Shown one piece after another: positions 5,384 to 51,100 of a DNA stretch of 64,000 nt. Under the pieces are notes generated by a model. It ran no database searches and was not told the origin of the DNA. It worked only from the letters and a program-made list of their open reading frames with translations. A program made the position numbers and the translations under genes. How positions within the stretch are numbered: the first letter of the stretch is position 1; every line of letters starts with the position of its first letter. Source of the stretch: a virus; the IMG/VR virus record IMGVR_UViG_3300036851_000218, positions 17,402 to 81,401 of that record, one strand, 5' to 3'.

Positions 5384-5977
5384 ATGTTACCGCCACTCAA
5401 TTCTAGCAAGCAGGATTTGTTCGAAGCAATAGATGGGTTCAGTGATAACGCTAATGTCCTTCGCGTTGGTAGACATATTTACTTCTACGCTGATGTGGAT
5501 ACTGACACCGCTTTAGAGTTAACCAAGTTGTTGCGGGAAGTAGATGGCGAAGTTGAGTGGGATAAAACAGCAGGGGCTTTAAAGCCCATAATCCTACACA
5601 TTCAGTCAAACGGTGGCTACCTATCATCCGCCCTGGCTATAGCTGACATCATTGAGTCCCTTGACACCGCCGTTGTATCAGTCATTGAAGGGTGGGCAGC
5701 TAGTGCATCTACGATCATATCGACAGCCTGCGACAGTCGTAAAATCACCCGCAACTCAATCATGCTCATACATCAGTTCAGTGGATCGTTTTGGGGTACA
5801 TATGAGCAGTTTAAAGACAACCAGAAATTACATGAAATTCAGATTGAGCAATTACGAAACTTTTATAGAGATCACTGTAAACTTGGAAAGAAAAAAATCA
5901 CTGAGATGCTCAAACATGATTACTGGATGAGCAGCAAAGAATCATTAGAACATGGATTTGTAGATGAGGTTGTATAA
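5384..5977 (+). CDS. ClpP-like serine peptidase
   Basis: 197 residues, the usual length of ClpP. The catalytic triad can be placed: Ser107 in GWAASAS, His130 in MLIHQF, and Asp179 in HDYWMSS, followed by the typical ClpP end EHGFVDEV. HIQSNGG at 72-78 matches the substrate-strand/oxyanion region. No Clp ATPase is encoded nearby, so it would act alone or with host ClpX or ClpA. Phage ClpP-like enzymes are often prohead proteases, but this one lies among replication genes and a separate prohead protease exists at 44148-45131. A role in remodelling host or phage proteins early in infection is therefore more likely. This is inference. Confidence 0.85.
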   Translation: MLPPLNSSKQDLFEAIDGFSDNANVLRVGRHIYFYADVDTDTALELTKLLREVDGEVEWDKTAGALKPIILHIQSNGGYLSSALAIADIIESLDTAVVSVIEGWAASASTIISTACDSRKITRNSIMLIHQFSGSFWGTYEQFKDNQKLHEIQIEQLRNFYRDHCKLGKKKITEMLKHDYWMSSKESLEHGFVDEVV

Positions 5978-8489: not shown

Positions 8490-9200
8490 ATGAGGTATCT
8501 CGGCGGAAAAAGTCGTTTATCTGGTAGGATTGTGGAACAGCTTGAAAAGCTACGACATCCTAACCAGATATATTTTGAACCCTTTGTAGGCTCGGCGGCT
8601 GTCGTATCTAAAATGGGCGGAATCAGGATAGCTTCGGATATCAATTCAGACTTAATTAGTTTATGGAGAGCCAATCAGACGGGCTATGAATTTCCTGAAT
8701 GCGTAACTAAAGACGAGTACGACAAAGTTAGGAGCAACCCCTCCGTGTTGGACGATACACCCCATCTACGGGCGTTTTACGGAATCTGTTGTTCATTCGG
8801 GGGTAAGTGGTTCGGCGGGTACGCACAAGGGGGCGGGAGGAATTTTGCAGACGAAGCCAAACGCGGTTTGCAGAGAATTAAAACTGAGATTCAAGATGTG
8901 GCGTTCTTATCTAAGGCTTATGATGCGTTCGCACCAAAAGGGATGCTTATCTACTGCGACCCGCCTTATGCCAACACAACTAAATATGATTTTGCGAAAG
9001 ACTTTGACACTTGCAAGTTCTGGAAAACCATGTTAGAGTGGTCAAAAGATAACGTCGTGGTTGTGTCAGAGTACACCTGCCCATTACCCGATACGGAGGT
9101 GCTGGCGGAGTGGGAGACTAAAACGACTGTTTCAAAGAGTCTAAACCTAAATAGCCACCGGATAGATAAACTATTCTTAATAAGGTACATCAATGATTAA
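8490..9200 (+). CDS. dam: Dam-like N6-adenine DNA methyltransferase (D12 class)
   Basis: 236 residues. The N-terminal RYLGGKSRL and FEPFVGSAAV at about 29-38 form the SAM site, and DPPY at 157-160 is the catalytic motif. The order matches the D12/Dam family, in which the target is adenine N6, often in GATC. No cognate endonuclease is present, so it is an orphan methylase. Together with the NPPY methylase and the Mom-like protein it gives this phage three probable DNA modification enzymes. The recognition sequence is unknown. Confidence 0.9.
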   Translation: MRYLGGKSRLSGRIVEQLEKLRHPNQIYFEPFVGSAAVVSKMGGIRIASDINSDLISLWRANQTGYEFPECVTKDEYDKVRSNPSVLDDTPHLRAFYGICCSFGGKWFGGYAQGGGRNFADEAKRGLQRIKTEIQDVAFLSKAYDAFAPKGMLIYCDPPYANTTKYDFAKDFDTCKFWKTMLEWSKDNVVVVSEYTCPLPDTEVLAEWETKTTVSKSLNLNSHRIDKLFLIRYIND

Positions 9201-13641: not shown

Positions 13642-14235
13642 ATGATACCAACACCGGAAGAACCACTTATCTTAATTTACCCTGGTCGCATCCCTGCCAT
13701 GAAAAACTCTATCCAACTGAGCCTGGATAATGAGGGGCATGTGACCAGCGTTGGGAGGAGCAAAGCAGTGCGAATTGCTTTAACGCAATTCGCTGGCAGT
13801 TCCGAACAACAACGTATCCGCCAGGGTTTTGAAGTCATTCCGCTGCCCTGGCGGATTGGGGCGTGGGTGAAACTTGGTTTTTACCTTGCCCCTAAATCAA
13901 AAGCTGTCATCACTAAACAAGATGCAGATAACGCTTACACCACTATTCAGGAAACCTGGGCAGGTGGTGTATGTGAGAATGACCGTCAGGTGTTTGATTT
14001 CCACGTCACTCAAAACCTCATCCGCAATAAAAATTTATTATACTCTGTCGCCTTTGTTTATGCCCTTGACCCTGAGCTACCGTCCCCCACTGATAGTTTT
14101 ATTAAACTATATAATAAGTTTAAGGATATGAAGACATGGCAGTTGAGCCAGCAGGCGTATACGCCGGATCGGGTATTGGAGAAATACAAGGATGTAATGA
14201 TCCAGTCATCTCCCATCAGTATGCCCGAAGGTTAG
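13642..14235 (+). CDS. rusA: RusA-like Holliday junction resolvase
   Basis: 197 residues. The RusA catalytic pattern is visible: Asp94 and Asp96 in KQDADNAY, then Asp114 in CENDRQV, the conserved acidic residues that bind metal at the junction. The N-terminal PGRIPAMKNS is where RusA proteins have a short strand plus basic loop. It resolves four-way junctions formed during recombination or replication before packaging. It is longer than E. coli RusA (120 residues), with a C-terminal extension of about 60 residues. The next gene starts 100 bases before its end. Confidence 0.82.
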   Translation: MIPTPEEPLILIYPGRIPAMKNSIQLSLDNEGHVTSVGRSKAVRIALTQFAGSSEQQRIRQGFEVIPLPWRIGAWVKLGFYLAPKSKAVITKQDADNAYTTIQETWAGGVCENDRQVFDFHVTQNLIRNKNLLYSVAFVYALDPELPSPTDSFIKLYNKFKDMKTWQLSQQAYTPDRVLEKYKDVMIQSSPISMPEG

Positions 14236-15041
14236 CCACCCGCGACGAAGATCGTCAGCAGCCCGAAATCTCACAACTTCCTGACAATTTAAAAGCATCT
14301 CACTTCACATTCTCATATGTACAACCCTCTAACAAAGACCTTATTGACAAAGTTAATGCTTTTATAGTACGATATGAATGGTTGGGAAAACCCTCACTAT
14401 ATGTCACCCACCGCTTCGTCGCAATGTACAAAGATTTGATCGGCGGTGTGGTGACAATGGATATGCCAATCGCCTTTAGTAAGCTGCTTGGTGAGAATAC
14501 ACGAAAAATTGAACGGCTGGTATCCAGGGGTGCAAGCGCATCATGGACACCCAAGAACTTAGCCAGCGCCCATATCATGTGGGCAATCCGTTGGATGGTA
14601 CAGAATACAGACTACAGGATATTCACAGCTTATGCTGATCCAGAAGCCAAAGAACTCGGAACAATTTATCAAGCCTGCAATTTCACCTATCTTGGACAGC
14701 GATACGGAACTACCACCATGCTCCGTGACCCTGCTAATCTTGAACGCGGATGGTTCACTGACCGAACATTACGATCACCATCCTCATTTGCTAGATACGC
14801 TAAAACATTGGGGGTTGATTGGAAACGGGGACAACCCCTCTCTGTTGGACAACGAGATGTATTCAATCAATACGCAAAATTAGTTGAAGCTAAATGTGAA
14901 GTGAAGCGGCAACCCGCTAAACATAAATATATGTACATATTAGGAAAGACGAAAGCTGAAACAAAGAAACTCACTGCCGAATTCCGACGGTTAAATCCTA
15001 AGTTAATAGATTTACCCTATCCGAAAGTAAGAGGCCAGTAA
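14136..15041 (+). CDS. Mom-like GNAT-fold DNA modification protein
   Basis: 301 residues. The centre reads TAYADPEAKELGTIYQACN (about 167-185), followed by FTYLGQRYGTTT. This fits the pattern SYADP...HxGxIYQAxNFxYxG of the Mom-like phage family. Mu Mom converts adenine to a carbamoylmethyl form that blocks restriction enzymes. The sequence match is to the family pattern only, and the exact chemistry here is unknown. The ATG at 14136 has AAGGA nine bases upstream but overlaps the RusA-like gene by 100 bases. The conserved region begins near residue 52, so a later start cannot be excluded. Two methylases upstream support a DNA-protection role. Confidence 0.72.
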   Translation: MAVEPAGVYAGSGIGEIQGCNDPVISHQYARRLATRDEDRQQPEISQLPDNLKASHFTFSYVQPSNKDLIDKVNAFIVRYEWLGKPSLYVTHRFVAMYKDLIGGVVTMDMPIAFSKLLGENTRKIERLVSRGASASWTPKNLASAHIMWAIRWMVQNTDYRIFTAYADPEAKELGTIYQACNFTYLGQRYGTTTMLRDPANLERGWFTDRTLRSPSSFARYAKTLGVDWKRGQPLSVGQRDVFNQYAKLVEAKCEVKRQPAKHKYMYILGKTKAETKKLTAEFRRLNPKLIDLPYPKVRGQ

Positions 15042-18324: not shown

Positions 18325-18840
18325 ATGGTTAGCGAAAACAACGGAAATATTTTCGACCAACTCGGTCAACGTGGTCTGTCAGCCTTTCTGACAGGTTTTA
18401 TTCTGGTAGTATTGTATCTGATCGCGGCTGCAACAGGCCGTAACCCGCTGGAACTTCCAGTAGCCGAAGACGGCGTGACCGTCATCACCCCTGAGTTTAT
18501 CCTCAGTATGCTCGGCCCTGCCGTAATGCTGGTCTACACGCTGGCGAAACTCTTTAAGAGTATTACCACCCGTGTTGCCCTGCAAGCCCTGGCATCGGCT
18601 CAAGCGATTGATCCAGGCAACGTTATCGCACTGCTGAAAATCCGTGAATTCTGGATTACGGTTGTGACGACTGTGTTTGCTGGACTGATGATGTTCAACC
18701 TGCGCTTTTGGGAAGAAGGTCAAGAAGCCACCGTCATTGACGTTATTGTAAATATGATTATGGCATTCATGGCTACCCTGCAAAGCAGCTACTCACAGCG
18801 TCCCGCCGGAGCGACTATCCAGATTGTCGAAGCTGATTAG
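18325..18840 (+). CDS. Four-helix membrane protein
   Basis: 171 residues behind AAGGAGA. Four hydrophobic segments are visible near 17-37, 54-73, 110-128 and 137-158. The soluble part between helices 2 and 3 is helical (VALQALASAQAIDPGNVIALL). Codon use is richer in C-ending codons than the neighbours, as in the capsid gene. A holin or other membrane-remodelling role is possible given strong expression, but no holin family is recognised and it lies far from the lysin. Confidence 0.6.
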   Translation: MVSENNGNIFDQLGQRGLSAFLTGFILVVLYLIAAATGRNPLELPVAEDGVTVITPEFILSMLGPAVMLVYTLAKLFKSITTRVALQALASAQAIDPGNVIALLKIREFWITVVTTVFAGLMMFNLRFWEEGQEATVIDVIVNMIMAFMATLQSSYSQRPAGATIQIVEAD

Positions 18841-19420: not shown

Positions 19421-20293
19421 CTATTTCAACCCATACAAAGTCATTTGTGAACCCCGTCGCCAATTCGTCGTAGATACCCAACTAATTTGTGTGACTGGAT
19501 GAAAAGTGGCTGCAATACACGCTGCCCAGGCTTGGGACAAATTACGGTTGGCTGTCGTGATTGGGGCTGTACCAATAAAACCTAACTTCCGAGTGTATGG
19601 CATAACACCCGCGTATTTATCGACATCGGCTAATGCATAATTAGGGATAAGACCGTACCCCAACATAGATGAACTAACTTGAAACGTTGTTCCTGCCGCT
19701 GGCGTTATAGCTTCATCTATTAAGGATGATTGTCCAGTAACGCCCGTACCTACAACTGCGGCTGCATCGTAGTTGATACGCCCAACATGGTAATTTGCAG
19801 TCGATACGCCATTTAATCGAAGTCCAGCGGCTACCGACACAGCCGCATCCACTAATCTGGCGGAGAAGGTAAAGAACAGATGTTTGTATGTTTGATCGAT
19901 TCCTGAAATCGATAAAGTAGTGCCACCATCGGCCTCCGCATTGAGAACGCTGTCTAAATACACCCAATCAAGTGATCTATCTTTTTCATAGTATGATATA
20001 GGAGTCCCCGTTGACACCCCATCTGCCACATCATCAACGGGCAAAAATACATTCTCTATCGCTTCTGTGTCGGGGTCGAACCAGTAAAAAGTTGATCCAA
20101 CTGACGGAGCATTGGTTGATCCAGTCTGTTCCTCCCAGGCCGCAATCAGTTCAGCAGGCGTAGGCTCAGTGGATTGATACAGTACAATTGCCTGCGTTGA
20201 CTCATCAATCGGTTGTAATACAGCTAGCAGATTTGAAATATACTCACATTGTTCTGAGTATGTTGATTCCCACGTTTGCGTTAAACAAGCCAT
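19421..20293 (-). CDS. Tail fibre-like protein, array member 5
   Basis: 290 residues, last gene of the late block. Residues 1-100 are the shared fibre module: STEPTPAELIAAWEEQTG, then the aromatic FYWFDPDTEAIENVF in place of the LLWYDT...GG of its sisters. The rest has a beta-rich domain (IDQTYKHLFFTFSARL, then LRLNGVSTANYH) of a kind seen in tail tip proteins of many siphoviruses. The end SQMTLYGLK resembles the end of the neighbouring fibre (SKISWYGF). It probably sits at the tail tip and contacts the host surface. Receptor specificity cannot be read. Confidence 0.65.
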   Translation of the reverse strand: MACLTQTWESTYSEQCEYISNLLAVLQPIDESTQAIVLYQSTEPTPAELIAAWEEQTGSTNAPSVGSTFYWFDPDTEAIENVFLPVDDVADGVSTGTPISYYEKDRSLDWVYLDSVLNAEADGGTTLSISGIDQTYKHLFFTFSARLVDAAVSVAAGLRLNGVSTANYHVGRINYDAAAVVGTGVTGQSSLIDEAITPAAGTTFQVSSSMLGYGLIPNYALADVDKYAGVMPYTRKLGFIGTAPITTANRNLSQAWAACIAATFHPVTQISWVSTTNWRRGSQMTLYGLK

Positions 20294-22026
20294 TATTCTT
20301 TATCCCATCTAGGTGTACCTGGAAACCCATACCAGCTAATTTTAGAACCGCTAACAAAGTTACCGAGCGCCCCTGCCAATGTCAATTCAATTTGGTTGAT
20401 TGGATCAAGGCTGTTACGTACACCAACACCACTGATCGTATTGTAGTTGGTTGAAGTAGCCACCGTACCGGCTACCGCCGCACCTTCGAAAATTGCTTGC
20501 TTCACATTGTCGTTGGATTGAATGGCGGGTATCCAAATCATATAATTACAAGTAGATTGTCCAGCTAATTGGTTGCCAGGAAAAGGAATAATGATTCCGC
20601 CGGATGTACCAGGGGCTATTTCATTTCGAGTTAAGCCAGCACCAGCAGCACGGAAATACAGTGTATGGTAATTTGCAGCCGCGCTGTCGCCATTAAACTT
20701 TAAGAAGGCTTGATTTAAAACAGCGGAAGTTGCGCCAACGGCCTCTACAATAATCAGAATATGTTCTATATCTGAGGGGATTGCCAGACCCGATAAAGAC
20801 ACACCTGCGGTTGTACCTGTCAAGTCATCTTGTTGTAACAGTCGGACATTCCCCGCTGGATCAACATACTGACTAACTTGGTAGACCTTTCCAGTGCTTT
20901 CAAAACCATCAGGAGCGACTGATCGCATAGTGATCGGTCCTGACAATGATGACACTACAACCGTTCCAGTCGAATCAACACTTACATTTTGTGCCTCAGT
21001 TGCGCTGCCGCCTATTCTATTAATCCAAGTACGCGCTGCTTCACTTGAATCATTAGGTACAAGGTAGCTATCTACTGCCTCATACCATACACCTTCATCT
21101 GAACCGTCGGGACGAATTCTGTAATTAGAGAAATAAATCCACTCCCCATCAGGACTCCATGTAGGTCCATGAATACCAGTATTAATTCCAGTTACCGTAC
21201 TCAAAGGAGTTTGATTTGCTCCGTTCGAATCCATAATGTAGATAGTACGATTAACTCCTGTACCCGATAGATAACAAATTTTCGTACCATCAGGAGACAA
21301 CTGCGGTAGACGAGAGGTAGCTCCACCACCTGTAGTCGTCAACCGCGTTCTGCCAGTCCCATCATCATTCATGATGGCAATTTCAAAAGTTACACCGTAT
21401 TCATTTGTCTCATATACTATTCGAGTTCCGCGCCAATGGGGAAAGCTGTCATTAAAAGCATCGTTGGTTAGACGAACAACACCTGTACCATCGACGTTCA
21501 TTTTAGCCAATTCATTTCCGCCGAACTCGCTGGTATTGAACACAATCATTGTACCTGCATCATTCCATGCAGGCTCTTTTCGTATGCCCGTAGAAGGTGT
21601 TAAAGCGGTTTCTTCATTAGCCATCATGTCGGTGACAACAAGTGTGTCGAGTGAGCCCGTCAACAACCGTTGGAAAACAACTTTACGGGTTGTCCAATTC
21701 CAATCGGGATCAGCATCAGTGTATCCGAATACCATCACGTTGGATGCTTGATCTTCAACTGTTCGGAAAACTCCACCAATCTGTAGCCGATCCGTGTCGT
21801 ACCACAAAAACTCTACGGATGTGGGGATAGGCAGGACGTTGCCAACCGCTGCTGCCAGCCACGCCGTTTCAAAATCGTCTTGAACAGGTACAGACGATTG
21901 ACGTAAAGTAATTGGATTTGCCCCACATAACTCATTTATGACAACCTGTAATGCGTCAAAAAAGGCTTCTTGGTCAACAGGAGTTTCACTGTAGTCACAA
22001 ATATCAGGTAGATCACTAAATGCCAT
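20293..22026 (-). CDS. Tail fibre-like protein with TolB-type beta-propeller
   Basis: 577 residues. The shared module occupies about 1-95 (LRQSSVPVQDDFETAW, then FLWYDTDRLQIGGVF). Residues 140-375 hold PD40/TolB-like propeller blades, each with patterns such as WNDAGTMIVF, LSPDGTKICYL and WSPDGEWIYFS. The C-terminal 190 residues repeat the jelly-roll-like domain of the last fibre gene (IEHILIIVEAV, FNGDSAAANYH). Propellers of this type bind proteins or sugars, so it is a strong candidate for a receptor-binding or surface-adhesion protein. The junctions to both neighbours are one-base overlaps. Confidence 0.75.
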   Translation of the reverse strand: MAFSDLPDICDYSETPVDQEAFFDALQVVINELCGANPITLRQSSVPVQDDFETAWLAAAVGNVLPIPTSVEFLWYDTDRLQIGGVFRTVEDQASNVMVFGYTDADPDWNWTTRKVVFQRLLTGSLDTLVVTDMMANEETALTPSTGIRKEPAWNDAGTMIVFNTSEFGGNELAKMNVDGTGVVRLTNDAFNDSFPHWRGTRIVYETNEYGVTFEIAIMNDDGTGRTRLTTTGGGATSRLPQLSPDGTKICYLSGTGVNRTIYIMDSNGANQTPLSTVTGINTGIHGPTWSPDGEWIYFSNYRIRPDGSDEGVWYEAVDSYLVPNDSSEAARTWINRIGGSATEAQNVSVDSTGTVVVSSLSGPITMRSVAPDGFESTGKVYQVSQYVDPAGNVRLLQQDDLTGTTAGVSLSGLAIPSDIEHILIIVEAVGATSAVLNQAFLKFNGDSAAANYHTLYFRAAGAGLTRNEIAPGTSGGIIIPFPGNQLAGQSTCNYMIWIPAIQSNDNVKQAIFEGAAVAGTVATSTNYNTISGVGVRNSLDPINQIELTLAGALGNFVSGSKISWYGFPGTPRWDKE

Positions 22027-23036
22027 TATACCAACTCCCCTGTCAACCCTTTAAATAAACCATATACCCACACCGCGCTGTCTAAATTATAACCGCCTGA
22101 ATCTCTACCAACACGAGGCATATCTTCGCGCATAGGGTACTCATCCGATTTCTGACTAGCCGCTTGTTGTAGAAACAGGTTGTTAGCAGCGAAGGTTGCA
22201 CCGAGCGACGATCCAATATGTAATCCACCAGGGGCAAGTGACACATCCGTAGGCGTATGGACACCACCACTGGTTGTAGTTGCCAATCCATAGCGGTGTA
22301 AAAAGATAACACCTTCACTAAATGCACCCGAATATGCAGATGATAAAGTAATATTAGTAGCAATAGCAGATTTCTCAGTGTCGTCATTGACACCCAAATT
22401 GGTAGCGGCATTTGTGACTTCAACATAAAAAGCCTTTTGAGCCGCAATAGAATAGTCTTCTTGCCAATCGTCGATGGGGGCAGTAGATCGAAAGAACAGG
22501 GTTAGATCGCCTGCACTTGTATCAAGCACTCTGATTTTATACATAATCATAAATGATTGTAAACCGAGTTGCGCCCATCGGTATAATTGATTCTTATTAA
22601 ATATTAATGCGACAAAGTTCTTTGATAGATCAACTGGAACAATAGAAATGCTTTCACCGGATAGAGGATGAGTATGGAGATTGGCCTTCCCCAATAATCG
22701 AATTGAAGGACGATCCCAATCGGTATCCAAATACGGGTACACTGTACCACTGGATGCCTGACCCGCTACTAAGTCATTAGTGGTGACAAAGGATTTTGCA
22801 TCCCCCTTAGACCAATCCACCCATATTAACTTTGTGCCAACGGGTATGGGCAATCCCAATCCAGTTTGAGATACGAAAGCCGTCTCCCATTCGCTTTGAG
22901 TCGGTTCAAGTATTTGTCGCAGGAACACCGCTTGTTTCCTGGCCTGTATATTTTGTACACGTTCGAGTAACAGTTTTGCAAATGATCTTTGTTCGATATA
23001 ATTTATAGGCCACTGAGTATCGTATATATCTGCCAT
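22026..23036 (-). CDS. Tail fibre-like protein, array member 3
   Basis: 336 residues from the ATG at 23036, which overlaps the upstream stop (TAATG). A longer in-frame start upstream lies inside the neighbour and is rejected. The shared module is present (LRQILEPTQSEWETAF, LPIPVGTKLIWVDW). The C-terminal domain is beta-rich and has no recognised family. Its end (AVWVYGLFKG) has the aromatic-Tyr-Gly pattern seen at the ends of the sister genes. Confidence 0.65.
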   Translation of the reverse strand: MADIYDTQWPINYIEQRSFAKLLLERVQNIQARKQAVFLRQILEPTQSEWETAFVSQTGLGLPIPVGTKLIWVDWSKGDAKSFVTTNDLVAGQASSGTVYPYLDTDWDRPSIRLLGKANLHTHPLSGESISIVPVDLSKNFVALIFNKNQLYRWAQLGLQSFMIMYKIRVLDTSAGDLTLFFRSTAPIDDWQEDYSIAAQKAFYVEVTNAATNLGVNDDTEKSAIATNITLSSAYSGAFSEGVIFLHRYGLATTTSGGVHTPTDVSLAPGGLHIGSSLGATFAANNLFLQQAASQKSDEYPMREDMPRVGRDSGGYNLDSAVWVYGLFKGLTGELV

Positions 23037-23797
23037 TATTGCACCATTGCTCGAATTGCGAAAGAAGTGACATTGTTCGCCCCGCCCCAAGCTAAGGTGG
23101 GGGCAGTTCCAGGCGCACCAGCAACTCCGAGTAAAGGTTTAACGGTATGAATACCGGCTGGCATATCTTCCAGAACATAGGATACGCTCTGTAAATTTGT
23201 GATAGGTAGGTTTTCAACCAACCCACCATTGGGGGGAACAGCTTGATACTGACTTCCTAGTTTTACGCCATCTAACATAAAGTCAACACCTGACGCAACA
23301 TTGGTGGTCGTCATAACAAAATTAAAATCTATAAACAGGGTGCAAATCACATCAGTAGTGAAGGTAATCTCAGGCAAGAACGCACCATTGCCCATCAAAC
23401 TAGCTGAGGACGAACGTGCTGTGGCATCATACTCAACATCCGATACAAGGATTGTACCAGGGACATACTCAGCAGTTCGAGACTCAACGGTTGCACTACC
23501 TGTAATCGTTCCGTACTGCCCACCTAATTGACTGTTAGTTGTGTCATACCACAACAGGGTAGCACTAGCAGGTATAGGAAGTGCGAATCCCGTCTGGACA
23601 GTGTAAGCTGCCTCCCATTGACCTTGCGTGGGTTCAGTCGCCTGAGATAGTATGACAACGGAACTCAAGTTCGCCTCAACATACTCGCGCAGTTCATTTA
23701 ATTTGTCCTGCATGGTTTGAATGAATATTTGTTGGTCGAAACAATCGTCAGGCCAAACACCTAAGTCAGTGAAATCAAGAATTGAACATGAAGCCAT
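23036..23797 (-). CDS. Tail fibre-like protein, array member 2
   Basis: 253 residues. The shared module is clear: LSQATEPTQGQWEAAYTVQT and LLWYDTTNSQLGGQYG. The C-terminal part is a compact beta-sandwich-like domain with MLDGVKLGSQYQ. It has no enzymatic motif. It starts one base into the stop of the gene before it, so the five genes are translated as a coupled chain. Confidence 0.65.
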   Translation of the reverse strand: MASCSILDFTDLGVWPDDCFDQQIFIQTMQDKLNELREYVEANLSSVVILSQATEPTQGQWEAAYTVQTGFALPIPASATLLWYDTTNSQLGGQYGTITGSATVESRTAEYVPGTILVSDVEYDATARSSSASLMGNGAFLPEITFTTDVICTLFIDFNFVMTTTNVASGVDFMLDGVKLGSQYQAVPPNGGLVENLPITNLQSVSYVLEDMPAGIHTVKPLLGVAGAPGTAPTLAWGGANNVTSFAIRAMVQ

Positions 23798-24618
23798 TAT
23801 TGTGCTACCTCTAAAGTATAAAAGCCATAAACTAGGCTAGTGAAATGGGAAGGTCTTAATCCAGCAGAAGCGGACAGAGACGCTTGATAATTTAAACCGC
23901 GTACACCCCCACCTGCACCGCCAGGAGAGAACATGCTAACTCTAAGCTGTAGTGTTGATGGGCCTGTCAAAGTTACGGGATGCGTGTGCCGGATGTACTG
24001 AGGTATCCAGTTGGTGGCAAATGTCCCACCTGAAAATTCTCCGTAGCCGTCGGTATTTGCGGCTGTACCAAATTGAGTGTGATGATAATTCTGAGTAACT
24101 ACGCTGCCTAAGACTGAGTACGACCAACGAATGGCGGCTGCGCTATAAAAAGATAAATAGAACCTTAGTCGGGAAGGGATGCTATCTAATAGAGTTCCAT
24201 TTGAAGGGATGAAAGTTGCAATTGTGTCAGCAAAGTTTGAACCAAGCGCCGTGTTTTCATTAGTGATTGCTAAAAAAGGTACTATTGAGTATATTGTTCC
24301 AGGCTGACGAGTGTAAGTGACGGGTACAACCACTCCACTGATAACTGTAAAGCTACCACCAAACCTAGCATTGCTAGTATCGTACCACAACAAACTTGCT
24401 CCGTCTGTAATAGGTAATGTCTTACCTTGACGCAACCACTCCGATTCCCAAAACCCTTGACCTGGAATTGATGGGCTGTAGATTATAATTTGTGGACGGA
24501 TGTTGTCATTAATATCTGTTTGTAAATCAGATATAACTTCCAGATTGTCCGCCATTAACTCCGGTTGTTCATCACAATCGCATGACCAATCTAATACAAT
24601 GGGTGTTTCAATTGCCAT
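23797..24618 (-). CDS. Tail fibre-like protein, array member 1
   Basis: 273 residues, closest of the five to the hub. It shares the module (YSPSIPGQGFWESEWLRQG, then LLWYDTSNARFGGSF) and has a DWSCDCDEQ start with two close cysteines. The C-terminal domain contains a His-rich strand (QNYHHTQFGT) and ends SLVYGFYTLEVAQ. It is probably attached to the tail tip through the shared module. Confidence 0.65.
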   Translation of the reverse strand: MAIETPIVLDWSCDCDEQPELMADNLEVISDLQTDINDNIRPQIIIYSPSIPGQGFWESEWLRQGKTLPITDGASLLWYDTSNARFGGSFTVISGVVVPVTYTRQPGTIYSIVPFLAITNENTALGSNFADTIATFIPSNGTLLDSIPSRLRFYLSFYSAAAIRWSYSVLGSVVTQNYHHTQFGTAANTDGYGEFSGGTFATNWIPQYIRHTHPVTLTGPSTLQLRVSMFSPGGAGGGVRGLNYQASLSASAGLRPSHFTSLVYGFYTLEVAQ

Positions 24619-45178: not shown

Positions 45179-46963
45179 TTACACAGGAGTGAGTTTATCT
45201 GCCATGAAATCGCAAATTGTCTGCTCGTCAAGGGTTAGCGGCTGATCGGATACGACCTTATTTAGTGCCGTTTCTATTTGGTCAGGGGTATACAACGGCA
45301 TTTCCCCACTGTATTGTGCGATCAGTTCTCTTTTGAAACCAAAAAAGTTTTTTAGGGTATTACGATTATTCAGTTGTACTTGAGCATTTGCGGCTTCGTA
45401 GGCATCTTCATCACTGACTTGGGGTTCATCTTCGACCTCCATCTTAGATAATTTTTCATTTAGAATAGCTTTATAGGTGGTAAAGACTTTAAATCGGCGT
45501 TCCCGTATGTTTCCATGACTATCGACTGATACTTCATCGTAATCTGGTACGGGTTCGGAATATGCGGATTTCGATGGCGATTCTTGCGGGGGCTGAGAAC
45601 CGTTCTCTATTTCCTCACCTTCCTTGGGGACAGGGAATACAGCTAGGCTTTCTGCACTAGCCATATCCGAAGTGCCTGTACCTGTGGCAATCAATTCCAG
45701 GTCATTTGGTAGCACATGGATCGACTGCATCCAGGACAGGAGGGCTTCTAAACTCAATCCGGCTTGAAATACGGTGGCGACTTTTTCGAGCGCCTCGGTT
45801 GTCAACTTGAGGACTTGGGCGTTGGCAACCATACTGCTGGTATCGACTTCTTCAATAAAATTGAATTGAAGTCGGCTGCGTCCACTGGAAAACGGTTTGA
45901 GGATGCCGGATTGGTTAATTTGCCGTTCTTCACTGCGGACGTATGAGGATGGCCCTTTTTGCAACTGTCGCTGTTCCTGAATTTCTTCAAGGGCGCGGTT
46001 CGTTGTTCTTTCGGAGTTCCAGAAATGCCGGAGAGATAACCCCAACGCGGCTGAAATCTGGTTCACATAATCGAACACAAATTCTTCGCGTTCAAAGCCT
46101 TCCGGTATTTTAGAAAGTCCGAGCGTTGTGATTTGATCTTCAACGCTAGTGCCAGTCAGGTTGTTCATTTCTACAATCGGGATACCGACTTTTGAGGGGT
46201 CTTCTCCTGAGTGGAGAGCAATTTGGGTCAGCACAGCCTCTTCAATCGAGGCGGCTAAGTCGGAACTTCCAACGATGATAATATCGCGGATACGTCTGCC
46301 ATCAGTAGATGCCATATCGTGTTCGCGGATTAACCAAGCAAGGTTGGCGGTTGGCATAACGTAGGCTATCGGGGAAATAAATAAGCCTGAACCACCGAGG
46401 GGCAGAGTGTGGTTTAAATACACATCTCCCGCCCTGAACTTACGCATGTCACCCGTATACGTCCAAACCTTATCCGTCGGACGAACTTCACCATTACGCT
46501 CTGGACGGGTGAATTGCAACATAGTGGGGTCAAGATATTCCAGGAAACCATTCGGTTCAGCCTTGGTTTTACCCGTTACTGTGAATGATGTTCTACCCAC
46601 TACTGTGAAGTCTAAAGAACGTCGTTTGAGGAATTCTTCAAATCCGTACTGTGGCAATCCGGTAGTTACATCAACTACTTTAGCGCGGTTTAACCAGTCA
46701 ACTGCCCGTTTAGCGGGTAAAGGTTTACCAACTATCTGCCACTCACGACCTGAACTTAATTGTTGAAATATTTGAATAGCCCCAGGCAGAATGGGCATTT
46801 TCCAAATCTGAACATCACGAAGATTTTGCGCGTAGGCTAACATCTGAGATGGAGCAATACGGCGAGGACCACCAGGCCATATTATAGACTTTCCCATGAT
46901 GTCCATACTTTTACGTAAGGCGACAGATTTTATGTTGTCGTCACCAAGTAATTTACTGTGCAT
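45179..46963 (-). CDS. Portal protein
   Basis: 594 residues between terminase/lysis genes and the prohead protease. The central part (FISPIAYVMPTANLAWLIRE, then ISAALGLSLRHFWNSERTT and NRALEEIQEQRQLQKG) fits the clip/wing order of HK97-type portals. The C-terminal 150 residues are charged and coiled. It forms the dodecameric DNA gate. Its start overlaps the lysin gene by 11 bases. A 7-base inverted repeat with a short loop (45161-45180) spans its stop codon. Confidence 0.8.
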   Translation of the reverse strand: MHSKLLGDDNIKSVALRKSMDIMGKSIIWPGGPRRIAPSQMLAYAQNLRDVQIWKMPILPGAIQIFQQLSSGREWQIVGKPLPAKRAVDWLNRAKVVDVTTGLPQYGFEEFLKRRSLDFTVVGRTSFTVTGKTKAEPNGFLEYLDPTMLQFTRPERNGEVRPTDKVWTYTGDMRKFRAGDVYLNHTLPLGGSGLFISPIAYVMPTANLAWLIREHDMASTDGRRIRDIIIVGSSDLAASIEEAVLTQIALHSGEDPSKVGIPIVEMNNLTGTSVEDQITTLGLSKIPEGFEREEFVFDYVNQISAALGLSLRHFWNSERTTNRALEEIQEQRQLQKGPSSYVRSEERQINQSGILKPFSSGRSRLQFNFIEEVDTSSMVANAQVLKLTTEALEKVATVFQAGLSLEALLSWMQSIHVLPNDLELIATGTGTSDMASAESLAVFPVPKEGEEIENGSQPPQESPSKSAYSEPVPDYDEVSVDSHGNIRERRFKVFTTYKAILNEKLSKMEVEDEPQVSDEDAYEAANAQVQLNNRNTLKNFFGFKRELIAQYSGEMPLYTPDQIETALNKVVSDQPLTLDEQTICDFMADKLTPV

Positions 46964-48320
46964 TTGTAATCCAGTCCGCTAAATGACGAATTAAATCCGA
47001 TAGCCAATAAAGAGTAGCAGCTACCGCTTCTCTGGCAGTCACGGGGATATGAGGCGGCGGAACGGGGTAAGTAAACTCAGACGTTGGGGGCGGGTCAAAT
47101 CCGATAACATCCCGACGAGAATAACCGAATATGCTTGTACCGGAAGCAGATTTTATCGGATACCAATCGCCAAACTCATCGTCATCGATGTAGAGAACCG
47201 GCTGACCGTCTCGAACTGCCCCGACAACACTAGATGTGATGCTTCGGGATGCCCGAACATGTACCGCAGCATTGGATCGAACAATACCTTTCAGCCAACG
47301 AGGATCACGGGGATCAGGGTAGACCTCTGGTACGGGATCGGGTGGGGGTGGTGGATTAGTAGGGGCGCTTGTCGATTCCAACCGCTTGTGAAGTCCGAAG
47401 GCTTTGGACAGATCAAATGCAGGCCAATTGTCATCGTCGCTCCATGCGAAGAAGAGTAAGGCTTCAACATCGGTATACAGAACTGTTTCAGCCCATTTCG
47501 CTTGGAAATATAAAGCATCTTGTGCATCCTCCCATTGTGGAAACCAGCGCAGCCATTGATTGACTAAAGTACGCCACCCATTAATAGACACATACGGATG
47601 CGTTTTGACCAGATTGTTGAGCCAATTACCGATGTCACCCAGGAAATCAAAACCCCACTCTGTTATAATAATACGTGGCTTGGGGATGTTGTTTTTACTG
47701 CAATAATCCAATACAAACTTATATCGCCCCATATGGAAGCGAGTTATATTGGATGCGTTCATAGGCCAGTTTTCAACAGGAATGAAATTGGGCTTAACTT
47801 TGTCAATAACCTGATCGGGTGTCCCACCGATTAAGCCGCTGGTAATAACTCCACCTGCATATTCATGTAGACCAATAACAAACAAGTTTCGGTACAATGC
47901 AGCCAGTTCGAAAATACGTTTACAGCGGAACAGTTGTTCGGGAGAGGGATACCCGACACTAAAATTCAAAACTACTAGGTGAACATTGCGGTTAACGCAT
48001 AACTCCATTAACTCAACATGCCACTTAACAAGTTCATCACTTAGCCCAGGTTCATTTGACGTATACAGATAAACGCCGTTAGCAGCTAAGTGCTGACGTT
48101 TATCAAGCCACTGAGTGGGAGTTTCTTTTAGCCAAATCTCTTCATCGGGGTAGTCACGAACAATCACAACACATCTAGGGAAACGCGCTTTAAATTGTTG
48201 CGCTATTTCACCTTGAAAGCTGTAAAACAACATAGCCGACGGATTGAGTCGGCTTGAATGGTCAAATAATGTATTTTTATCTCTGGTGGAAAGGACGTTG
48301 TAACCGATTTTACTTTGCAT
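46953..48320 (-). CDS. Glycosidase-SH3 cell wall lysin
   Basis: 455 residues. Residues 1-310 look like a clan GH-A TIM barrel, with the acid/base Glu90 in TSNEPG and the nucleophile Glu221 in ITEWGFD. A Pro-rich hinge (about 316-340, NPPPPPDPVPE) leads to an SH3b-like wall-binding domain (about 345-405, VHVRASRSITSSVVGAV). The C-terminal 30 residues form a hydrophobic helix. Two-domain catalytic plus SH3b architecture is typical of endolysins, but this barrel is not a usual muramidase. It has no N-terminal signal peptide, so release needs a holin. Substrate is uncertain. Confidence 0.7.
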   Translation of the reverse strand: MQSKIGYNVLSTRDKNTLFDHSSRLNPSAMLFYSFQGEIAQQFKARFPRCVVIVRDYPDEEIWLKETPTQWLDKRQHLAANGVYLYTSNEPGLSDELVKWHVELMELCVNRNVHLVVLNFSVGYPSPEQLFRCKRIFELAALYRNLFVIGLHEYAGGVITSGLIGGTPDQVIDKVKPNFIPVENWPMNASNITRFHMGRYKFVLDYCSKNNIPKPRIIITEWGFDFLGDIGNWLNNLVKTHPYVSINGWRTLVNQWLRWFPQWEDAQDALYFQAKWAETVLYTDVEALLFFAWSDDDNWPAFDLSKAFGLHKRLESTSAPTNPPPPPDPVPEVYPDPRDPRWLKGIVRSNAAVHVRASRSITSSVVGAVRDGQPVLYIDDDEFGDWYPIKSASGTSIFGYSRRDVIGFDPPPTSEFTYPVPPPHIPVTAREAVAATLYWLSDLIRHLADWITNAQ

Positions 48321-48630
48321 TCACAGGCTCGGTAATAGTAAACATTTGCTCAAAGGGGATTAATAAAGACACCCAACCATGACAACCTCTTTCGGTTGTA
48401 GATTGTATCCACACCCATTCGTATTTACGCATTAGATCGTAGGTACGGGTTTGTGGATAAAGCCAAACCTCTTCACCTTCATCCACCTTAAATACAATAT
48501 CATAACCAACCCCGCGACCATAGCGAACATTGGATTGTCCCCGCGCAGGGTGGATAACTGCCCGAACCGGATTAGCACGTAAGCCATGATCGGGCGGATA
48601 GAATACGGGTGAATTAGCTTGTAGACTCAA
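48310..48630 (-). CDS. Small SH3-like wall-binding protein
   Basis: 106 residues from a TTG at 48630 with GGAG ten bases upstream. Nearly the whole protein resembles an SH3b module (VRYGRGVGYDIVFKVDEGE, WVWIQSTTERGCHGWV). It overlaps the lysin start by 11 bases, so it is translated with it. It may be a subunit or regulator that targets the lysin to the wall. Confidence 0.6.
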   Translation of the reverse strand: MSLQANSPVFYPPDHGLRANPVRAVIHPARGQSNVRYGRGVGYDIVFKVDEGEEVWLYPQTRTYDLMRKYEWVWIQSTTERGCHGWVSLLIPFEQMFTITEPVNAK

Positions 48631-49423
48631 CTTTGGACATCTCCGATGTACTTGTTTTGTTTAGTATGAAATCACCGACATCACGAAAGGTAACAATCAC
48701 GCGGGTAACTTTGTGATTCTCCAAACTGACGACAGGTTCAGCGTCGATAAGCAACCAGATTACCGCAGAGTCAGCCGTTCGCTTCACGCCCAACAAATTT
48801 TGTCGGGAGGGCATTGCGGTCTGTAGTGCAAATACGGTGGGGATTTCACCTGGGGGTACAGCAGAGCCATCAGAAAACATAAACCAACCAATTCGGTCAG
48901 CCAATGTCGAATTTATAATATCTTCGGCCTTAGCCCCCAATATAGCCAGCGCGTCTTTATTACAGGACGTAATTCGACCTTCGGGGTTGATAACCAGAAC
49001 ACCTTTTCGCAAAGATGCCAGATCACGGGAATTCAGAGCATCGATAATAGCGGTCTGCGTATTTGTCAATTGACCGGAGATAGCCGTTACCTGCTGACCA
49101 AGTGCCGCCGTCAACGACGTTGCCAAATTATTAAAATCTGCACCAAAGCGTTCGAACAGCGTATTTTGACTTTCATTAGAAGCTGTAACCGATTCGGCTG
49201 TGACCTTCATAGCGTCGGTGGCTTCTGCCATCTTGTCACCCAACGATATGGCTTTGGATGTCAGTTCAAAAGACTTTTCATCTTTATCCATCGTTCGATC
49301 AAGGAACTTGCTAAAAGAACGAAGCCCCTGCCAAAACAGGAAACAGATGAACAAACATACCACACCAATACCGATTTTATCGCCGTTTGCGATAATAGCT
49401 TCTACGATCTTCGTTAAATCCAT
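48614..49423 (-). CDS. Membrane-anchored PAS-domain protein
   Basis: 269 residues behind TAGGAGA. A membrane helix lies at about 17-32, then a helical linker (45-130) rich in Ala, Ser and Thr as in chemoreceptor and sensor kinase signalling helices. A PAS domain follows at about 138-253: GVLVINPEGRITSCNKDALA, then PGEIPTVFALQTAMPS and VIVTFRDVGD. No kinase, cyclase or other output domain follows. PAS domains sense redox state, light or ligands, or make dimers. Its place directly ahead of the lysin, with its own promoter, suggests a role in lysis timing. That role is inference. Confidence 0.75.
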   Translation of the reverse strand: MDLTKIVEAIIANGDKIGIGVVCLFICFLFWQGLRSFSKFLDRTMDKDEKSFELTSKAISLGDKMAEATDAMKVTAESVTASNESQNTLFERFGADFNNLATSLTAALGQQVTAISGQLTNTQTAIIDALNSRDLASLRKGVLVINPEGRITSCNKDALAILGAKAEDIINSTLADRIGWFMFSDGSAVPPGEIPTVFALQTAMPSRQNLLGVKRTADSAVIWLLIDAEPVVSLENHKVTRVIVTFRDVGDFILNKTSTSEMSKVESTS

Positions 49424-49443
49424 GTGTTCTTATCTCCTATGGT

Positions 49444-49472
49444 ATTATACCACAATATGTTCTATTTGTAAA
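49444..49472 (-). promoter_or_regulatory. Promoter of the PAS-lysin cassette
   Basis: On the - strand TTTACA (49472-49467) and TATAAT (49449-49444) have a 17-base spacer. The -10 box is inside the near-palindrome TGGTATTATACCA, which could be an operator. The PAS gene starts about 20 bases downstream. Confidence 0.75.
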
Positions 49473-49489
49473 GGACTTACATTTCAAAA

Positions 49490-51100
49490 CTATAACAAAT
49501 AGGGGCTTTTGATCCGGCGGACTGTCGAACCTTGTATAGAAGCCCCTAAATGTTGGACGACGATAGCTACAGCGTCTAAGCAGTCATCATGACGTGCTAC
49601 ACCGAAGTTCATAGCTTCGGATGCGAAGAAACGATATGCGTCACAGTCTTTGTTAAAGAACACACGGCCTGTATTACATAGTCTGGCTAAGTTTTCAGTA
49701 CGGTGGCCTTTGTCACCAATCGGCGGGATAGGGTTAATCGGTAGATGTGGGTATTTGTCAGATATAGTAAATTTCATTACGGTCTGGAAAGCGACTTTCT
49801 CGATTAAGACTTGGTTGACTTTACCCCATTTATTCGCTACGTTATTTACAAACCCTGCCATCTGTTCGACAGTCTGTTCGGGGGTAGTTTTGATACGTAG
49901 CATGTCCAAAATAAATAAGTTTCGATCTTTGTCTGCGCCGACAGCAGCGAATACCGTAAAGTCTGCGTCGGATTTAATAGAGATGGCGAAGTCTGTACCA
50001 ACATGGATTGATACCAGATCGTCCGGTTTAAGTGTTTCGGGTAGGGGCTTCATTAAGCCGTCGGGCAGAAACTTGGCATTGACAAACGCCGTTGGGTCAT
50101 TTAAATACATGACTTTGAACAACGTATCGTTGTCCATTTCAACCCGTTTGCGTTCCAGCTTCTCAACAGGCCAGTATTCAGGCCAGTAAGACATCGGTGT
50201 ACCATCGGGCGCATAACGCAGGGCGGAGATTTCAATGGTGTGCCAGGATGGATTATTTTTTAATTTTTCAGGTACGTCTTCGGGCATCCAGCGCGTACCA
50301 ATATTAATAACCTTAGCCTCTTCTTTAACGCATGGAATAAGTGTGCGGATAAGATACTCGTAAACTTCATCTTGCAGTTCGGCTTTCAGGTAGGCTTCGT
50401 CAATAATGTCGTCCAGAACCATCAGGCCAGAAATACGTCTACCAATAATGCCTTTACCGCCCGAACCGGACACATACAGGGTCGGGTCTTTCAGTGAACC
50501 GTGACGGGTCAGGATCGAACGCCACGCATTGTAGGACAATGACTTGGCTTTCATGGTTTTAGGATCAAACAGACCGTCGGCATAGATGGAGAATTCCTGG
50601 ATGGTGTTGCGCTGGCGTTCATCGACCTTAATCCAGGGGAATACGTTGTGGAAACGGGTGTTATCGCGGAAAATACCGCGAATCATCTCAAGACGGGCTT
50701 CGGCTTGCTTAGCGGACACCGAAATAATGACATTCGATGTCAGGGGGAAACGGGCAATAAACCAAGCCATCGAATACATTGAAATGGTGGTTTTAGCACT
50801 ATCGCGGGGTGCGATAATGTTCAAACGGAACTTATTATCTTTTTTACCCTGTTCGGAAAAGTCAAAGATCGACTGCATCCACAGGCGGTGGTGTTTGGCT
50901 GGCGCTAAACCCGTTACGTACTCAATAAAGAAAGCCGGATCAACCCGACTTTTATCAATCCACCACTTTTCCGCCCGAAGTACCGTTACAAAACGTTTTT
51001 CACGGGGTCTTCCAGTTGAAGGGTCTAATGGAACAGCAGGAATAGGGGGTTCACCAACATACGGGGTCTTTGCGTCAGACGGGCTAAGTATCTTCGTCAT
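49490..51100 (-). CDS. terL: Terminase large subunit
   Basis: 536 residues. The Walker A-like PRDSAKTT is at 98-105, the Walker B LMVLDDI near 226-232. The nuclease part starts near 355 with HVGTDFAIS and ends with DDCLDAVAIV. The enzyme cuts the concatemer and pumps DNA through the portal. It overlaps the small subunit gene by 17 bases. Confidence 0.92.
   Translation of the reverse strand: MTKILSPSDAKTPYVGEPPIPAVPLDPSTGRPREKRFVTVLRAEKWWIDKSRVDPAFFIEYVTGLAPAKHHRLWMQSIFDFSEQGKKDNKFRLNIIAPRDSAKTTISMYSMAWFIARFPLTSNVIISVSAKQAEARLEMIRGIFRDNTRFHNVFPWIKVDERQRNTIQEFSIYADGLFDPKTMKAKSLSYNAWRSILTRHGSLKDPTLYVSGSGGKGIIGRRISGLMVLDDIIDEAYLKAELQDEVYEYLIRTLIPCVKEEAKVINIGTRWMPEDVPEKLKNNPSWHTIEISALRYAPDGTPMSYWPEYWPVEKLERKRVEMDNDTLFKVMYLNDPTAFVNAKFLPDGLMKPLPETLKPDDLVSIHVGTDFAISIKSDADFTVFAAVGADKDRNLFILDMLRIKTTPEQTVEQMAGFVNNVANKWGKVNQVLIEKVAFQTVMKFTISDKYPHLPINPIPPIGDKGHRTENLARLCNTGRVFFNKDCDAYRFFASEAMNFGVARHDDCLDAVAIVVQHLGASIQGSTVRRIKSPYLL

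Follow-up and report, generated by a model that had tools for sequence, protein, structure and literature searches.

The window analysed here, a 64,000-nt stretch of an IMG/VR virus record 81.4 kb long (its positions 17402-81401), carries on its minus strand a run of genes in the order terS, terL, a gene for a PAS-domain protein, a 106-aa ORF, a glycosidase-like gene, portal, head protease and capsid. The terminase large subunit gene terL (49490..51100; phrog_38, E=6e-64) ends 66 bp upstream of the ATG of the PAS gene, and terS, its neighbour, was assigned by position. The PAS protein has 269 aa (48614..49423), a designation based on its ORF together with Pfam and Chloroflexota matches and a fold search. 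It is followed by the 106-aa ORF, which has a TTG start (48310..48630), by the gene of a 455-aa putative glycosidase (46953..48320) and by a 594-aa protein (45179..46963) which is taken as the portal by gene order and for which searches of Pfam, PHROG and phages yielded nothing useful. Beyond the portal lie the head protease (phrog_80/7015, E about 1e-4) and the presumed major capsid protein. The consecutive ORFs for the PAS protein, the 106-aa product, the glycosidase and the portal overlap by 17, 11 and 11 nt, and the transcription unit runs on without a gap from the PAS gene into the portal. Since these four ORFs overlap by 11-17 bases, the PAS gene stands at the front of a head-gene operon and not in an isolated lysis cassette; the "separately promoted" cassette of an earlier sequence-only reading says too much, as the operon also takes in the portal and head genes.

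Directly ahead of the PAS gene, the promoter scan identified a -35 box TTTACA (49467..49472, minus strand) and a -10 box TATAAT (49444..49449, minus strand) preceded by a TG (TTGTGG-TATAAT), with 11 of 12 consensus matches and a 17-bp spacer; the 17-base-spaced promoter with a palindromic -10 box that had been reported at this place is thus exact (TTTACA-17-TATAAT). A Shine-Dalgarno-like AGGAG (49434..49438, minus strand) is found 10 nt before the PAS ATG, and the leader from the 49472 promoter would be only about 14 nt long. Over the 81-kb phage, 18 near-consensus sigma70 promoters with 11-12 of 12 matches were counted, against about 1.8 expected under a first-order Markov model (e.g. 16461, 18266, 36896, 42707, 49472, 52714 and 53290). 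Most of them fall outside long ORFs, many operons are served, and TGTG-N-TATAAT or a close variant recurs in several late ones. As a group they have the look of ordinary host promoters of the sigma type. The idea of separate promotion holds, then, as far as a strong promoter match is present, but this site is one of 18, would transcribe the portal and head genes too, and does not belong to lysis alone. The -10 box is surrounded by a 13-bp inverted repeat, TGGTATAATACCA (49440..49452), the sole exact copy in the window, which might at best be a weak candidate operator. A lysis-specific operator at the palindromic -10 was considered and rejected, because TATAATA itself provides half of the palindrome and one near-palindrome among 18 promoters is unsurprising.

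The PAS protein has the architecture first proposed for it, that is, a 269-residue ORF with an N-terminal helix, a linker and a C-terminal PAS domain. According to hydropathy and charge, residues 17-34 (49322..49375, minus strand) form its only transmembrane segment, in agreement with the single membrane helix expected. In the 31 residues that follow, 42% are charged, with 7 K/R, and these basic residues directly after the helix lead us to predict an N-out/C-in topology in which the PAS domain would be cytoplasmic. The linker (residues 35-134; 49022..49321, minus strand), delimited by composition and by an AlphaFold2 (AF2) model, is rich in S/T/N/Q/A beyond the charged stretch and is helical in that single-sequence, low-confidence model. 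Its heptad periodicity gives a marginal signal over residues 35-80 (shuffle p 0.03) and is absent further on, so that "receptor-like helical linker" remains a fair description, although calling it a coiled coil would go too far. The half of the protein formed by the membrane helix and the stalk showed no homology to holin and antiholin models, holin-type PHROGs included.

The C-terminal domain (residues 135-251; 48671..49021, minus strand) is a true PAS domain. Three Pfam PAS models reach or exceed their curated cut-offs (PAS_9 with 32.5 bits against 27, PAS with 29.4 against 22.6, and PAS_4 with 23.1, equal to its cut-off), and 90 of 400 Chloroflexota genomes contain a match to the domain at E<=1e-3, the best with E=1.8e-16 and 37% identity over residues 136-250. 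The aligned relatives define a subtype signature, DGS..P..E.P....L.T..P followed by MG/LG, W-L, A-P and TF-D, and a profile built from them finds, in the PDB, DosP, a heme-PAS protein, and kinases of the WalK type. The AF2 model, with a low mean pLDDT of 49, nonetheless has the PAS elements in the correct order, with an alpha/beta fold, a 5-strand sheet and helices between strands 2 and 3; among the PDB matches listed by Foldseek for this model, most were PAS/LOV domains or proteins containing one, judged by their titles, with DosP at the top. Structure prediction, proposed earlier as a check of the PAS fold, hence recovered its elements, in agreement with the Pfam and Chloroflexota matches.

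The Chloroflexota matches mostly span residues about 135-251 and lie nearly always inside much larger ORFs (mostly 500-2300 aa). Compared with these large sensor-type PAS proteins (DGS-P-E-P ... WLL-AEP type), the phage domain is of the same subtype, with 26-34% identity over the domain, but its cellular counterparts, mostly in proteins over 500 aa, retain a D-x-S/T motif at the end. In the alignment with host PAS domains, all 11 of the latter have S or T as the third residue of this output-coupling motif, where the phage has G (D-V-G; 48674..48682, minus strand). Only 18 residues separate the PAS domain from the stop codon, leaving no output module attached. The claim that an output domain is lacking is consequently borne out by both the short tail and the altered motif, and this arrangement fits a PAS domain which has ceased to act on an output module at its C-terminal end. 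Reading residues 135-251, we found neither a heme-type histidine in the predicted F-helix, the sole His lying in the late hairpin (ENHK), nor a LOV cysteine motif of the NCRFL type (GxNCRFLQ); with both missing, it is unlikely that the domain senses oxygen or light in a classical way. The domain may still respond to redox state or bind a flavin or a metabolite.

Full-length relatives of the PAS protein were found neither in IMG/VR nor among 50,697 phage records nor in the 400 Chloroflexota genomes. Scans of IMG/VR with single proteins (the PAS protein, TerL, the 455-aa protein and the major capsid protein), which require an exact 8-residue match and so reach close relatives only, returned zero relatives, and tblastn with the PAS protein plus two host PAS domains gave no match in the 50,697 phage records. 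A DNA pattern for the PAS subtype, used on IMG/VR with the record of the window left out, detected a single real PAS protein, an 866-aa multi-PAS kinase on what is probably bacterial DNA; as the pattern is strict, matching only 1 of 61 Chloroflexota genomes, little can be concluded from its failure to find more. The PAS protein is so far an orphan, and its linkage to a lysin rests for this reason on one genome; in the collections searched, no homologue acting in the virion away from a lysin was seen. Taken together, the PAS subtype and the relatives of the glycosidase both point to Chloroflexota, probably the host phylum, a lean which has to be read knowing that other phyla were searched with less effort. 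In two Chloroflexota genomes, PAS-only proteins of 150-184 aa occur beside an MBL-fold hydrolase (L068, 2301-2753, minus strand, with a match in L069), looking like a conserved cellular pair.

Two genes downstream of the PAS gene, the 455-aa protein carries the motifs NEP ... ITEWGFD, an SH3_3-like domain and a C-terminal helix, and is a candidate endolysin. Its earlier designation as a glycosidase-SH3 lysin stands as regards the glycosidase-like motifs and is tentative as regards SH3, with an SH3_3 match (E=5e-4, 20.6 bits) under the 27-bit cut-off, and homology to known lysins is absent: Pfam, PHROG and NCBIfam contain no catalytic match, and no known endolysin domain was detected. Weak TIM-barrel matches came from an AF2 model with a mean pLDDT of 40, too poor for use. 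The 106-aa protein in between had been called SH3-like, an identity that we dropped as no SH3 similarity, SH3_3 included, could be detected. A DNA pattern built on the motifs of the 455-aa protein retrieved one true relative, a 472-aa protein from an Anaerolineae MAG (L011; 25% identity, E about 2e-12) with the same motif order, SH3 and C-terminal helix; the matches to this pattern in viruses, beside transposase genes, were false. In two more Chloroflexota genomes, lipoprotein-like relatives that have the motifs NEPGR and ITEWGW are encoded in the chromosome, among genes that are not of phage type. Plausibly, the protein is an enzyme that hydrolyses surface glycans and has its kin among enzymes of the host. 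It has no signal peptide, so that endolysin and virion roles both fit, and with no hydrophobic transmembrane segment either, its release would require a holin function. Among roughly 36 phage proteins scanned, no lysin domain was found besides this one, for which the endolysin role is plausible.

Altogether, these observations lead us to propose, tentatively, that the PAS protein is a late-expressed, holin-accessory-like component of lysis timing, lying N-out/C-in in the inner membrane. Its short N-terminus would be outside, one helix would cross the membrane, and the helical stalk and the PAS domain would be in the cytoplasm, where the latter would dimerise the protein and might bind a small molecule. 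By cooperating with or opposing the actual holin, the protein would set the time at which the signal-less glycosidase-SH3 enzyme is released. The domain would have been acquired from a Chloroflexota-type sensor protein with loss of the S/T of the output motif and of the output module, in which case the PAS domain would act via the stalk on the membrane helix. In favor of this proposal, the PAS gene shares an operon of overlapping ORFs with a gene whose product is, of those scanned, the only lysin-like one, and its own product, with an N-terminal transmembrane segment, basic residues and a helical stalk, would follow the plan of LysF1b and Mu releasin. Examples of phages that time lysis by conditions which they sense are also known (T4, ICP1 and VP882). 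Against it count the missing homology to holins and antiholins, an operon that also drives head genes, a neighbour from no known lysin family with two Chloroflexota relatives that are lipoprotein-like and chromosomal, and another multi-TM holin candidate in the genome. This candidate alternative holin, away from the lysin, is a 171-aa protein with about 4 hydrophobic segments (18325..18840, plus strand) behind a perfect TTGACA-17-TATAAT promoter (18266); it matches Phage_holin_1 only with E=2.2 and has no homologue in the 50,697 phages.

Several known systems share part of this arrangement. The mycobacteriophage protein LysF1b (F1 phages; Girr gp35, NBJ gp33), whose deletion alters lysis timing, and Mu releasin have an N-out/C-in plan (PMC13056207), and resemble the PAS protein in the single N-terminal transmembrane segment, the predicted N-out/C-in topology, the basic residues after it, the extended cytoplasmic helix and the vicinity of lysin genes. 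LysF1b, however, has 124 aa and no PAS domain, and the PAS protein matches no holin-type PHROG. Vibriophage VP882 encodes VqmA, a PAS receptor that couples small-molecule sensing to host lysis (PMC8284805); the two have a phage-encoded PAS domain in common, but VqmA is soluble, binds DNA as a transcription factor and has an output domain, whereas the one described here is membrane-anchored and output-less. Lysis inhibition in T4 and ICP1 uses superinfection as a signal (PMC7182436). The antiholins concerned, T4 RI/RIII and ICP1 ArrA, would be analogous in coupling lysis timing to a signal, and differ in that no PAS domain is known in them and that the signal is superinfection. Output-less phage PAS proteins are not unique, as BFVD lists other short viral PAS-fold proteins with little space for an output domain (A0A345MNJ9, 182 aa; A0A8D9CBR8, 165 aa; A0A6J5NY05, 205 aa; A0A6J5KZZ3, 169 aa), albeit with only 10-18% identity in the fold match.

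A lysis cassette carrying its own sensor, as first suggested, is possible. The specific version in which a host-captured cytoplasmic PAS domain drives a holin-like helix through the stalk, reading a chemical or membrane cue directly, seems to us quite improbable; if true, the moment of lysis would be adjusted to the metabolism of the cell with no transcription involved. A membrane-anchored PAS domain in a lysin operon would join the timing of lysis by superinfection signals (T4, ICP1) with its start by quorum-sensing PAS receptors (VP882), as a sensor wired into the lysis machinery. It would also offer a concrete gene in a phage whose probable host phylum is poorly cultured, and be an example of a host-type sensor domain that a phage has taken up and that has lost its output.

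Other explanations place the function elsewhere. The protein might be a decoy for host signalling, a membrane-bound, output-less PAS protein that pairs with host PAS kinases or cyclases and shuts or rewires signalling late in infection, its proximity to the lysin being incidental. Dimerisation is common among PAS domains, and the degenerate D-V-G motif, the missing output domain and the nearest domain relatives, which belong to large Chloroflexota proteins (at best 37% identical, in ORFs mostly of 500-2300 aa), all agree with such a role. We nevertheless regard it as somewhat unlikely, given that the gene has head genes as its neighbours in a late operon, a less usual place for genes of host takeover, that no particular host kinase presents itself as partner and that the host phylum is itself only a probable one.

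Unlikely, in our estimation, is a role as accessory to the head or to packaging. The protein would then be tethered to the membrane or be part of the virion, it would be produced along with terminase and portal, and its PAS domain would be an inert oligomerisation module. The one-strand order from terS to capsid, with its overlapping ORFs, argues for it, as does a weak similarity of the linker to tape-measure and head-fibre PHROGs (E 0.02-0.06) that probably reflects low complexity. A hydrophobic transmembrane segment with a sensor-type PAS domain would, on the other hand, be unusual for a head protein, and in CRP-5 and ctsTn925, remote relatives by terminase, the interval between terL and portal is either without a gene or occupied by an unrelated one. 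Superinfection exclusion, or another membrane moron function by which a late membrane protein shields the infected cell from other phages, is a frequent role of small single-TM phage membrane proteins and would suit the promoter directly ahead of the gene, but is very improbable for a gene inside a tight head/lysin operon, not alone, whose product has no family match.

Besides the locus of the PAS protein, the phage encodes a Mom-family protein (14136-15041, plus strand; Pfam E=4e-10) and two DNA methyltransferases (1149-1844 and 8490-9200, both plus strand), and may thus modify its own DNA. A ClpP-type protease is also phage-encoded (5384-5977, plus strand; Pfam E=3e-24). On the minus strand at 19421-24618, five successive proteins, one of them with WD40-like PD40 repeats, have a common N-terminal module, ILSQATEPTQ..W..AY...G..LPIP....LWYD, which is probably a duplicated tail-fibre attachment module.
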